Part shown: positions 2,364-20,232 of the stretch, one piece after another
Layout of the letters: each line of letters starts with the position of its first letter
Position numbering within the stretch: position 1 is the stretch's first letter
Assembly (NCBI GenBank): GCA_012517145.1
Contig: JAAYVM010000200.1
Span: 1-37,090 of the forward strand
Reading direction: 5' to 3'
Length of the DNA: 37,090 nt
Origin: Acholeplasmataceae bacterium
Lineage (GTDB): Bacteria; Bacillota; Negativicutes; Acidaminococcales; Acidaminococcaceae
Notes under the pieces: generated by a model
What the model was told of the DNA's origin: nothing
The model's database searches: none
Seen by the model: the letters and a program-made list of their open reading frames with translations, nothing else
Position numbers and translations under genes: made by a program

Positions 2364-3254
2364 ATGAAAGAAAACGGCAGTTTCAGTCAGGGAGTGATTT
2401 TTAGTCTTAGTTCATATGTAATATGGGGTGTACTGCCTATTTACTGGAAAAGTATCCAAGGCGTTGCCTCGTTTGAAATATTGGCCAACAGAATTCTCTG
2501 GTCAGTTGTCTTTGTTGGCATTTTGCTGAAGTTAACAGGCAGATGGACGTCGTTTATCGAAGAAACAAAGAAAATTATCACTGACAGGAAAAAGACAGCC
2601 GCACTTGCGGCAGCAGGTCTGACCATCCTGGTCAACTGGGGTATCTTTATTTGGGCAGTTGCTTCAGATCATATCATAGAAACCAGTATGGGCTATTATA
2701 TTAACCCATTGGTCAGTGTTTTAATGGGCGTTTTTTATCTGCATGAAAAACTGGATAACTCCATCAAGGCGGCAGTTATATTAGCAGCAATCGGGGTTGG
2801 CAGTATGGTTTGGAATGTTGGTGTCTTCCCTTGGATTTCCATTAGCCTTGCTTTGAGTTTTGCTCTTTACGGCTTGATTAAGAAGACGCTGGTTGTTGAA
2901 ACCATGACCAGTATTATTCTGGAGACTTTTGTAGTTTCCCCTATCGCTCTTGCTTATCTCTATTACCTTGCGGATATGGGCAATGCGGCCTGGCAGCACA
3001 GTGATACCTTGACTTTATTGCTTTTGGCTGGTGCCGGCGCTGTGACTGCTACACCGCTTATTCTTTTTACGGCAGGTGCAAAACTCTTGCCTTTAAGCAT
3101 CGTTGGCTTTTTACAGTACGTTTCTCCTACGATAACTTTATTGCTTGGAATTTTTGTTTATGGCGAGGAATTTACGTTCAGTCATCTGCTTTCCTTTGGT
3201 TGGATCTGGCTTGGATTATTGGTCTTTTCCATTGCTCAGTTTCGCAAGCGCTGA
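2364..3254 (+). CDS. rarD: RarD-family EamA/DMT permease
   Basis: This is a 296-residue, highly hydrophobic protein with about ten predicted membrane segments in two EamA-type halves. The start resembles RarD (GVIFSLSSYVIWGVLPIYWK), and the C-terminal half contains LQYVSPTITLLLG, conserved in this subfamily. RarD proteins belong to the drug/metabolite transporter superfamily; the Escherichia coli name comes from a chloramphenicol-sensitivity phenotype and the true substrate is unsettled. A GAGGA ribosome site precedes the ATG. The gene has its own promoter and appears monocistronic. The substrate here is unknown. Confidence 0.85.
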   Translation: MKENGSFSQGVIFSLSSYVIWGVLPIYWKSIQGVASFEILANRILWSVVFVGILLKLTGRWTSFIEETKKIITDRKKTAALAAAGLTILVNWGIFIWAVASDHIIETSMGYYINPLVSVLMGVFYLHEKLDNSIKAAVILAAIGVGSMVWNVGVFPWISISLALSFALYGLIKKTLVVETMTSIILETFVVSPIALAYLYYLADMGNAAWQHSDTLTLLLLAGAGAVTATPLILFTAGAKLLPLSIVGFLQYVSPTITLLLGIFVYGEEFTFSHLLSFGWIWLGLLVFSIAQFRKR

Positions 3255-3418
3255 CACAATATCTTGTGTTCAGTGGAAAAAGTGGATAATATCAACAAAG
3301 TTATCCACAGGGTGTTGATAAAGTTGGGAAAAACGGTGTATAAAAACAGAAGTATTAAAGATTTTGACGAAAAATCTGGGAAATAATGTGGAAATATCAA
3401 AAGATATCCACAAAAAAC

Positions 3419-3470
3419 GGTTGATAAGTTGTTAATAACGGTTGATAAGTTGTTAATAACGGTTGATAAC
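3419..3470 (+). repeat. Tandem repeat, 21-bp unit, about 2.4 copies
   Basis: The unit beginning GGTTGATAAGTTGTTAATAAC occurs at 3419 and 3440, followed by a partial copy at 3461. The copies are identical. The period equals two turns of B-DNA. It sits next to canonical DnaA boxes. Confidence 0.95.
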
Positions 3471-3550
3471 TCATGTATGAATTATTAGCCAGCTACAATA
3501 TATAGTGAAAATCAAGCAAATTAAGCAACTGTAAAATGATTTTATAGGAC

Positions 3551-3579
3551 TTGCATCAACGGTCACATATGTAGATAAT
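3551..3579 (+). promoter_or_regulatory. Putative promoter of the UxaE-like gene
   Basis: TTGCAT at 3551-3556 and GATAAT at 3574-3579 have a 17-bp spacer. They lie 51 bp before the start codon and just downstream of the DnaA-box array. Confidence 0.5.
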
Positions 3580-3630: not shown

Positions 3631-5007
3631 ATGGCAATTAAACAGGTTGGGGCAATAAAAGCAATGGAAGCTGCCAGCGCAGGCAAAGTAATGGAGGCTT
3701 CACTCAGCGAAATCAGCGGCGGCTGGCTAGCTTTGGTTGAAACGGCGCAAGGCAGAAAACTAGTTTGTGCGGCTACCAAGGAATGCCAGGTACTTGCCAT
3801 GTTTAAAGCAGAAGACGAAAGCATAGAGAATGGCATAATCATAAAAATAATGGGATTAAATTCCAATAATGCCGCTGCTTTACGTCGTCTCGTAAAATGG
3901 ACAGGGCCAACGGCCTGCGGAACCAAAGGCCTGAGCGTAGGATTCAGCGACTGGCTCGGTAATGCCGAAGAATACCTGACACCTTTTTTCAGCAAAAAAC
4001 AAGTAAAACCTGTTTTGGTGGAGTATACACCTGCTGATTGCGCTCTGCTGCAGCGTAATTTTCTTGAAGCGATTGACGCAGCTACCTGGGCAGTTTTTGC
4101 AACTGGTTACAAAGATGGTTATGCTGCCAGTGCAACACGGTTAACTTCTGAAGAGGATCTTGTCAAAGTTTTGCTTTATGGTTACAGCATGCTCGGCCTG
4201 GATTTCTCTGATAAAATTAATCTGGAGATTGAGGGATTAACGGATCTTGCGGTAGAAGAACGCTATCTGGAATTGCCGCAGGAATTCAGAGATGCTGTGG
4301 AAGGCTCTTATCTAGCAGGGCCGGTGAAAGCAGGCAACGAGACACTGCATTACACACCTGAAATTTTGAGACGCATTGTTTTGGAATATGGTGAAGTCAT
4401 CATGCATGCACAGTCTATGTATAATTCTTATTTGAAAAATACGCCTTGGGATATCGATTTCGAACTTTATTTATCAAAAGCGGGCAAAGCTATCACACCG
4501 GAAGAACACTATCTGGTTGGTTATGAACTGACACGCAACAAAGTGAAACTGACTGCCATTGGACTGGATGCTGCTGTTGAAAACAAAGCTTTGCAGGAAG
4601 ATATCGTTATTCATGCCGCTATTGCGGAAGCCTGCAATTACCGTTTAAGCGTTGCCAATGCCGATTTATTTGCCGGAGATTTCAGTGCAATTGCCAAAGT
4701 ATTGAAAAGCAGGGTTTATTTTAAATTCGAAAATGTTTTGTGGCTCAGCGCTTTGCAGTGCGTTGCGGAAAAGGACATGGCACTCCTGGCAGCAATGGCA
4801 GCTTTTGCCGGCATTGCTACAGCTGAAGCTGCTGAACTCGTGCCTGCCTCTGAAACCGGAAAACTATATGCCGGTCTTTACGGAAAGTTCTTGTCGCCAG
4901 CTGATGGAAATTTTGCTGCAAAAATCAAGGCCGTTTTGGCCGCAAACACAGACACATATCGTGAAAAAATTACAATTATGGTAGAAAAATATTTAAAAAG
5001 TTGCTGA
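3631..5007 (+). CDS. Divergent tagaturonate epimerase (UxaE) family protein, possibly without the canonical activity
   Basis: This 458-residue soluble protein has several stretches that follow the order and spacing I know from UxaE, the hexuronate epimerase family. These are SVGFSDWLG (~103-111); ATWAVFATGYKDGYAA (~150), like the family ATWGVFQEGYRDGYGA; DFELYL...TPEEHYLVGYEL (~276-297); HAAIAEACNYRLSVANADLF (~328-347); and WLSALQCVAEKD (~371-382). Several polar positions I expect in true UxaE are replaced: the HSGSDKF-like segment has become VANADLF, the family DET of the DFE.S.DET motif has become SKA, and the SLAPRF-like segment is lost. It may therefore be a degenerate or repurposed paralogue. 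No uronate genes are nearby. GGAGG precedes the ATG. Family assignment is moderately secure, function is not. Confidence 0.5.
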   Translation: MAIKQVGAIKAMEAASAGKVMEASLSEISGGWLALVETAQGRKLVCAATKECQVLAMFKAEDESIENGIIIKIMGLNSNNAAALRRLVKWTGPTACGTKGLSVGFSDWLGNAEEYLTPFFSKKQVKPVLVEYTPADCALLQRNFLEAIDAATWAVFATGYKDGYAASATRLTSEEDLVKVLLYGYSMLGLDFSDKINLEIEGLTDLAVEERYLELPQEFRDAVEGSYLAGPVKAGNETLHYTPEILRRIVLEYGEVIMHAQSMYNSYLKNTPWDIDFELYLSKAGKAITPEEHYLVGYELTRNKVKLTAIGLDAAVENKALQEDIVIHAAIAEACNYRLSVANADLFAGDFSAIAKVLKSRVYFKFENVLWLSALQCVAEKDMALLAAMAAFAGIATAEAAELVPASETGKLYAGLYGKFLSPADGNFAAKIKAVLAANTDTYREKITIMVEKYLKSC

Positions 5008-5092: not shown

Positions 5093-5355
5093 AACTTCAT
5101 AGATTTATTTAAAGGTTATGATTGGGAAGAAAGTCAGGATGCAAAGTCACAGAGAGCCGATGGTTGGTGGAAATCGGTACGGAGCCCTGGTCGAGTAAAT
5201 CACCCATGAACTCGTCAGCGAAAGGGATACCAAGTAGCATGATGCGTAACAAGCACGTTAGGCTTGAGCCGGTTGATGGACTGGTGCAAAAGAGTAATAA
5301 ATTAGGGTGGTACCGCGTATTTTACGCCCCTGCTTAGGCAGGGGCGTTTTTATTT
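5093..5355 (+). promoter_or_regulatory. T-box riboswitch leader with terminator, controlling acetolactate synthase
   Basis: The 14-nt T-box AGGGTGGTACCGCG is present at 5304-5317. It is followed by a terminator with a 9-bp GC-rich stem (5325-5333 with 5338-5346) and a T tract. Upstream, AGAGAG at 5151-5156 and GGTTGGTGGAA fit the distal Stem I loops. T-box leaders read uncharged tRNA and allow read-through on amino acid starvation; here that would induce branched-chain amino acid synthesis. The specifier codon could not be fixed by eye: CTC (Leu, 5211-5213, after GAA) and GTC (Val, 5214-5216) are candidates. Open frames inside this leader are not genes. Confidence 0.95.
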
Positions 5356-19317: not shown

Positions 19318-20232
19318 TCAGTCATTATTCTGGCAGCTGGCATCGCGTGGACCTTGCATCATATGTTTGTGCATGCCGTCTTTCGGTCCGAAGTGCTTGC
19401 CTTCTTTAATGTTTTGCAGAATTTTATCTGCCTGATCCTGAGACATTCTGCCGTCAGCTACCGCTTTATCGAGATTTCCTTTGGCTAATTCAAGGTGTTT
19501 GGCCATGAATTGGTCATAAACACCTGCATCTTTAGCAATTTCACGGATAGGTTTATGGTTGGTACGAGCTTCTTCTTTAATGCTTTCTACATCACGGCCT
19601 GTTAAGTCTGCCAGTATTTTAGCATTTTCTTCACGCATCACGCCAGGGCCCTTGTGCATACCAGGTGCGCCCATTGGTCCGAAGTGCTTGCCTTCTTTAA
19701 TATTTTGCAGAATTTTATCTGCCTGATCCTGAGACATTCTGCCATCAGCTACTGCTTTATCAAGATTTCCTTTGGCTAATTCAAGGTGTTTGGCCATGAA
19801 TTGGTCATAAACACCTGCATCTTTAGCAATTTCACGGATAGGTTTATGGTTGGTACGAGCTTCTTCTTTAATGCTTTCTACATCACGGCCTGTTAAATCT
19901 GCCAGTATTTTAGCATTTTCTTCACGCATTATGCCAGGACCCTTGTGCATACCGCCAGGTCCCATATGCTGACCGCCAAAGCCCTTGTGCATTTGGCCTT
20001 TTCCATAACAATCGCCCATACCTGGTCCTTGTTTTTGCCCAGGATATTGAATTTTGCCTACGCTGTCATTGCCGGCATTTCTTTCCTGGATTGACTGCTG
20101 AACTAAATTGCGCATTTTGTGTGGGTTTTGATCATAGTCGCTTGTGCTTGCTGAAGTTGCTGCAAAAACGGTAGAAGCACCAAGAGCAGCAATAAGGGTA
20201 CCAATAACCAGAGCTGATTTCATTTTTTTCAT
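19318..20232 (-). CDS. Periplasmic/secreted protein with two near-identical 97-residue repeats and His/Met-rich linkers
   Basis: This 304-residue protein has a clear signal peptide (MKKMKSALVIGTLIAALGA, cleavage after VFA). A Gly/Met/His-rich segment (GQMHKGFGGQHMGPGGMHKG) follows, then two copies of a 97-residue unit that differ at one residue (GIM against GVM). Each unit contains ILADLTGRDVESIKEEAR and a helical stretch ending in MSQDQADKILQNI. This resembles the DUF2680/YckD type and, loosely, Spy/CpxP-like envelope proteins. The His/Met-rich linkers could bind metal. It lies divergent to a two-component system, which may regulate it. AAGGAG precedes the ATG. The biochemical role is unknown. 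Confidence 0.7.
   Translation of the reverse strand: MKKMKSALVIGTLIAALGASTVFAATSASTSDYDQNPHKMRNLVQQSIQERNAGNDSVGKIQYPGQKQGPGMGDCYGKGQMHKGFGGQHMGPGGMHKGPGIMREENAKILADLTGRDVESIKEEARTNHKPIREIAKDAGVYDQFMAKHLELAKGNLDKAVADGRMSQDQADKILQNIKEGKHFGPMGAPGMHKGPGVMREENAKILADLTGRDVESIKEEARTNHKPIREIAKDAGVYDQFMAKHLELAKGNLDKAVADGRMSQDQADKILQNIKEGKHFGPKDGMHKHMMQGPRDASCQNND
19385..19955 (-). repeat. Tandem 291-bp duplication inside the exported protein gene
   Basis: The segment starting GGTCCGAAGTGCTTGCC at 19385 recurs at 19676, 291 bp apart. I count eight differences over about 280 bp. All are transitions, and all give A or T in the N-terminal copy. The only amino-acid change is Val to Ile. Confidence 0.95.

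Follow-up and report, generated by a model that had tools for sequence, protein, structure and literature searches.

The window analyzed here is a 37,090-nucleotide stretch of an Acidaminococcaceae genome that is assembled in 220 contigs and whose closest named relatives found were uncultured Phascolarctobacterium. Between a gene for a RarD transporter and one for a UxaE-like protein, the window carries a cluster of DnaA-type boxes in DNA of ~69% AT, with a palindrome resembling an NrdR box before it and another after it (Table 1); these palindromes were missed in the initial annotation. Farther downstream, a T-box leader (5109 to 5334; Rfam RF00230, 101 bits) precedes genes for an ACT-domain protein and an ilvB-like acetolactate synthase, as it does in relatives, and a 291-bp unit occurs twice at 97% identity (19385 to 19953) inside the gene at 19318 to 20232, as the product of a recent internal duplication.

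Table 1. Genes, DnaA boxes, and palindromes at the cluster (positions in the window)
Feature	Position	Strand	Remarks
Upstream gene, RarD (EamA-family transporter)	2364-3254	+	Pfam EamA; NCBIfam TIGR00688 rarD, 223 bits (cut-off 130)
NrdR-box-like palindrome 1, ACACAATATCTTGTGT	3254-3269		16/16; overlaps last base of rarD stop codon; 47 bp before core box
DnaA box TTATCCACT	3281-3289	-	1 mismatch
Module A: TTATCCACA, 3 bp, TTATCAACA	3301-3321	both	core TTATCCACA-N3-TGTNNATAA kept in family alignment
DnaA box TTATCCACA	3301-3309	+	perfect; first box of module A
DnaA box TTATCAACA	3313-3321	-	1 mismatch; module A, 3 bp past perfect box
DnaA box ATATCCACA	3404-3412	+	1 mismatch; opens module B; aligns with conserved + box there
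21-bp tandem array, five boxes	3416-3469	-	module B enlarged by 21-bp duplication; three boxes in relatives
NrdR-box-like palindrome 2, CTACAATATATAGTGA	3493-3508		weaker, 13/16; 239 bp from palindrome 1
Promoter of downstream gene: TTGCAT (3551-3556), 17 bp, GATAAT (3574-3579)	3551-3579	+	conserved in family alignment; consensus match only
Further DnaA box	3570		1 mismatch
Downstream gene, UxaE-like, 458 aa	3631-5007	+	Pfam PF16257, E 1.9e-60

Nine DnaA-type boxes span 189 bp, and the box inventory given in the initial annotation (one perfect, three with one mismatch, and five phased 9-mers, within at most 190 bp) was borne out when positions were recomputed. In 3,000 dinucleotide-preserving shuffles of positions 3255 to 3550, which served as the null model, neither the four boxes with at most one mismatch (shuffle mean, 0.18) nor the 13 with at most two (shuffle mean, 1.8) were ever reached. 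The array 9-mers (TTATCAACC or TTATTAACA) start at 3419, 3430, 3440, 3451, and 3461, in steps of 11, 10, 11, and 10 bp, and this helically phased array is itself a 21-bp unit present in 2.6 copies that are 100% identical. Judged against relatives, the doubling of the array is particular to the window's genome, and the underlying three-box module is shared. Perfect boxes number 16 in the 2.47-Mb genome versus 24 for the reversed control pattern, and the other sites of perfect boxes outside oriC hold single boxes or at most three each. Because only one box is perfect in the window's genome, the affinity of its cluster for DnaA may be modest.

The cluster had been described as far from any dnaA gene, which holds within the contig but not within the genome. 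The dnaA gene lies on a separate contig, C23, where the genes are ordered rnpA-dnaA-dnaN-recF-gyrB-gyrA; the two contigs share a divided glpA-like gene, one half being carried at the end of C23 and the other at the start of the window, with ~19 codons missing at the junction compared to the intact glpA-like gene of genome G022. C23 adjoins the window, and the cluster therefore starts ~14.4 kb downstream of the dnaA stop codon, across the contig break. One contig of G021 has the same gene order all the way from dnaA through rarD to the cluster; in G010 the order is contiguous starting at gyrB, and in G022 starting at tauE, which immediately precedes gyrA.

Of the roles previously proposed for the cluster, one was that of oriC; a second or auxiliary origin using the boxes and the adjacent AT-rich DNA was also considered. 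The number and spacing of the boxes and the AT content are indeed origin-like, and the dnaA-dnaN gap also has a + box followed at 14 and about 35 bp by - boxes. However, it is this gap, located on C23, that holds DnaA boxes, then TACTACTACGTCTACTA-type DnaA-trios, and then AT-rich DNA in 15/15 genomes aligned; in the window's genome, the oriC boxes stand at L005 3396 and 3404, with the trio array CTACTACTACGGCTACTA following them. No conserved DnaA-trio block was found at the cluster in the family alignment. A regular expression for at least four trios failed even at oriC (zero matches), and CTACTA words, used instead, occurred in 8 of 29 clusters at no conserved place. GC skew, suggested in the initial annotation as a check, went against the origin as well: the switch from negative to positive falls across dnaA-dnaN in the window's genome, whereas skew in the window is positive both before and after the cluster. 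Likewise in a relative (G058), samples of the left contig were all negative, up to 160 kb in, and the contig with the cluster was positive in all 5-kb samples taken, up to 200 kb, such that neither genome has a skew switch at the cluster. Genes on both sides of the cluster also share one direction, the + strand. With no conserved trio block and no skew switch, the cluster is, on anatomical and skew grounds, not oriC; the true oriC is the dnaA-dnaN gap, and we regard an origin of any kind at the cluster as very improbable. A relocation of oriC to the cluster, an idea prompted by genus g2, in which the core motif lies next to dnaA, was rejected on the basis of the trio array and skew.

The dnaA region has further features of its own. 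The two perfect boxes upstream of dnaA (G000:C23, L005 1602-1645) lie at the middle of a long inverted repeat, TCCAGATATTTATCCACA-CC-TGTGGATAAATATCTGGA. A run of T's comes after it, and the hairpin could thus serve both as a terminator and as a DnaA double site. Near dnaA in three Acidaminococcus-like genomes (G001:C1 1-4100, G004:C4, and G009:C4), there are two tandem dnaA or dnaA-like genes with several DnaA-box clusters between them.

Comparison across relatives revealed a fixed layout of the cluster. Upstream of the uxaE-like gene (PF16257), nearly all relatives have 5 to 12 boxes with at most one mismatch, arranged as module A, TTATCCACA-N3-TGTNNATAA-N2-TGTTGATAA, and, about 100 bp after it, module B, in which one + box is followed by - boxes 14, 26, and 35 bp on. 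The summed mismatches of module B were 3 to 11 in most relatives, and the lowest sum among 400 random stretches was 13; module B of the window, displaced by its duplication, scored poorly in this layout test. The layout is conserved in about 15 genera of Acidaminococcaceae, and one genome from a second family in the order has a similar one. Wherever both are on one contig in Acidaminococcaceae, the cluster lies 10 to 14 kb downstream of dnaA; it is found past gyrA and contiguous with dnaA in G021, G001, G004, G006, G009, G013, and G061. In the Acidaminococcus-like genus g2 (G001, G004, G006, and G009), which has no uxaE-like gene, the cluster is directly behind gyrA and has a + box that is followed at 14 and 35 bp by - boxes, and a small cluster in G013 is likewise beyond gyrA. 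G061, of the second family, has six boxes ~26 kb beyond dnaA, flanked by the 3' ends of the rubrerythrin and 5S rRNA genes; its cluster is likely homologous to that of Acidaminococcaceae, with a layout that matches only in part. Among four other Negativicutes (first 40 kb of each), the only one with dnaA in that stretch, G067, had no cluster behind gyrA. A duplicated form was observed in G051 of genus g17, where the whole cluster, together with its upstream palindrome, occurs twice, 3.7 kb apart (L079, G051:C33, at ~1474 and 5195).

These changes of neighborhood bear on another of the earlier proposals, a DnaA-controlled promoter for the gene at 3631. Such control is possible as a side effect, given the conserved promoter, but it is not the reason for the conservation of the cluster. 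In its fullest form, the proposal is that the cluster is the regulatory region of the uxaE-like gene, with DnaA and NrdR acting as transcription factors at the promoter and imposing cell cycle and dNTP control. In its favor, a conserved promoter and ribosome-binding site come after the cluster in the family alignment, the cluster of most family members precedes a + strand gene that has a conserved promoter of its own, the cluster of genus g17 has left rarD but in most genomes still directly precedes the uxaE-like gene, and the E. coli nrdA promoter uses both DnaA and NrdR (PMC12176259, PMC4009431). Against it, G020, G021, and G031, without a uxaE-like gene, keep the cluster (INDEPENDENCE from the neighboring gene) between rarD and the ACT-ilvB genes, a different gene lies downstream in Acidaminococcus-like genomes, the two G051 copies are 13 to 17 kb from the uxaE-like gene, the transcripts around the G061 cluster are convergent, and the cluster lies more than 80 bp upstream of the promoter. 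We therefore rejected a plain uxaE promoter as the main role, since the cluster is kept without the gene in three genomes and has a convergent setting in G061, and we consider the combined regulation by DnaA and NrdR improbable. In the lineage of G061, a promoter role is excluded because the cluster lies between convergent transcripts. The cluster outlives the loss of the uxaE-like gene, stands behind gyrA in another genus, and persists between convergent transcripts in a second family; therefore, it is an autonomous element and not a promoter as its main role, with a possible side effect on the gene at 3631.

The palindromes are part of this element. In the 2.47-Mb genome, palindrome 1 alone matches ACACWATATNTWGTGT in full, and the NrdR-box pattern (consensus, acaCwAtATaTwGtg [PMC4009431]) occurs 33 times within two mismatches versus 11 times for the control. 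Of 37 clusters, 30 have a palindrome scoring at least 12/16 that lies 45 to 47 bp ahead of the core box (background, ~0.002), a count for which some of the other seven clusters were anchored wrongly, without the core, and for which no joint P applies, the genomes being related and not independent. Palindrome 2 follows the core box by ~151, 162, or 172 bp in relatives and by 192 bp in the window; these offsets differ by about one or two helical turns, with a weak match and only approximate phasing in g10, g13, and g18. Palindrome 2 is weak in several genomes, and some copies of the palindromes score only 11 to 12/16. Three g2 genomes have two partial copies (11 to 12/16) just before the boxes, at -59 and -28, the same 31-bp spacing as in known NrdR pairs, in which 16-bp boxes are 15 bp apart (PMC12176259). 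The gene for NrdR was present in 15/15 genomes tested, including that of the window. The same motif also precedes nrdR-nrdD (in three genomes, paired at 42 to 43 bp), nrdJ, and dnaG, where nrdD, nrdJ, and dnaG are names given from sequence by family resemblance; NrdR was tested separately.

The possibility that the flanking palindromes are not NrdR sites and belong instead to another regulator or to the DnaA complex itself, leaving the element a plain DnaA-box cluster, draws on the low-scoring copies and on a spacing between palindromes 1 and 2 (~197 to 239 bp across clusters) that is unlike that of known NrdR pairs. The occurrence of the motif before nrdR-nrdD and nrdJ, and of 31-bp pairs both at the Acidaminococcus-like clusters and in the dnaA-dnaN gap of G042, speaks against it, and we hold it to be unlikely, though the least so of the alternatives weighed here. 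From sequence, NrdR binding at the flanking palindromes is probable. A search of six relatives for exact tandem NrdR pairs (14-bp cores, 10- to 30-bp gap, no mismatch) returned none, and an association of NrdR boxes with a DnaA-box cluster was not found in the literature searched, which does not prove novelty. Two occurrences elsewhere were recorded: two NrdR-box-like palindromes exactly 31 bp apart in the dnaA-dnaN gap (presumed oriC) of a reduced genome (L090, G042:C6, 8196 and 8227) and one upstream of a gene reading as dnaG, for primase (G000:C178:16355, L099 1501). The palindrome before dnaG suggests that the NrdR regulon may include replication genes in this genome.

Together, the fixed box arrangement, with palindromes before and after it kept through changes of the neighboring genes, makes it probable that the cluster is a cis-acting, noncoding control element near oriC, predicted to bind DnaA and to serve as a reservoir or control site, with a probable NrdR (dATP/ATP) input. 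Of the three roles in the initial annotation, DnaA titration is best supported, since conservation of the cluster near oriC does not depend on the genes around it. DnaA binds such boxes cooperatively, and DnaA-ATP would assemble at the phased boxes as it does at oriC. As the cluster offers neither a DnaA-trio nor an unwinding site, the complex would be unable to start a fork and would therefore hold DnaA away from oriC or change its nucleotide state. A site 14 kb from oriC would be copied seconds to tens of seconds after initiation; the sink would thus be doubled almost at once, when re-initiation must be blocked, as would suit a brake on re-initiation. Less certainly, NrdR, which binds DNA with ATP or ADP plus dATP (PMC12176259), might bend or loop the segment from the palindromes when dATP is plentiful and make DnaA binding dependent on the dNTP supply; the neighboring promoter may be affected as well. 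The specific scheme of a reservoir gated by nucleotide supply, in which NrdR with ATP and dATP on the palindromes would alter the DnaA held and tie initiation to the dNTP pool, is tentative, and we think it rather doubtful as a whole.

Most DnaA-box clusters known outside origins are those of E. coli and B. subtilis, and the way in which Firmicutes other than Bacillus restrain re-initiation is not well known. Here, an element is conserved in box spacing and position over a family of common gut anaerobes; because both are fixed, it is likely under selection, and it may contribute to the timing of DNA replication. Should the NrdR palindromes be genuine, they connect dNTP sensing with replication initiation directly and in a way open to testing; a gated reservoir, if true, would couple the regulator of ribonucleotide reductase to the initiator of replication at a place other than a reductase gene. 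The cluster is also a warning for origin-finding tools, since in these genomes oriC does not always coincide with the densest cluster of boxes.

Known systems share single aspects of this element. B. subtilis has six DnaA-box clusters outside oriC, the removal of all of which leads to early initiation (Okumura et al. 2012 as summarized in PMC5295017 and PMC13220808); because the loss of all six advances initiation, they are taken to lower free DnaA. A single one of these clusters acts only weakly by itself (PMC5295017), which counts against the reservoir reading of the present cluster. The cluster described here is likewise a DnaA-box cluster of a Firmicute, outside oriC and in its neighborhood (~14.4 kb from dnaA), but it is one cluster, with a fixed layout, at one place family-wide, and with NrdR-type palindromes. 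The oriC of Bacillus is bipartite, with boxes upstream of dnaA plus the dnaA-dnaN gap; a set of this kind, with a trio array, is present at rpmH-dnaA-dnaN in the window's genome, whereas the cluster in the window is an extra set 14.4 kb off without a trio array. E. coli datA, which has a few spaced boxes outside oriC, acts negatively on initiation, speeds DnaA-ATP hydrolysis, and needs the DNA-bending partner IHF; it resembles the window's cluster in its few spaced boxes outside oriC but differs in box layout and in the partner site. The NrdR-box pairs of ribonucleotide reductase promoters have the same palindrome, set 3 to 4 helical turns apart (usually 31 to 42 bp) instead of the ~20 turns (~218 bp) over which the palindromes here flank the boxes, and no reductase gene is near the cluster. 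It is the E. coli nrdA promoter that, like the cluster, brings DnaA and NrdR sites together.
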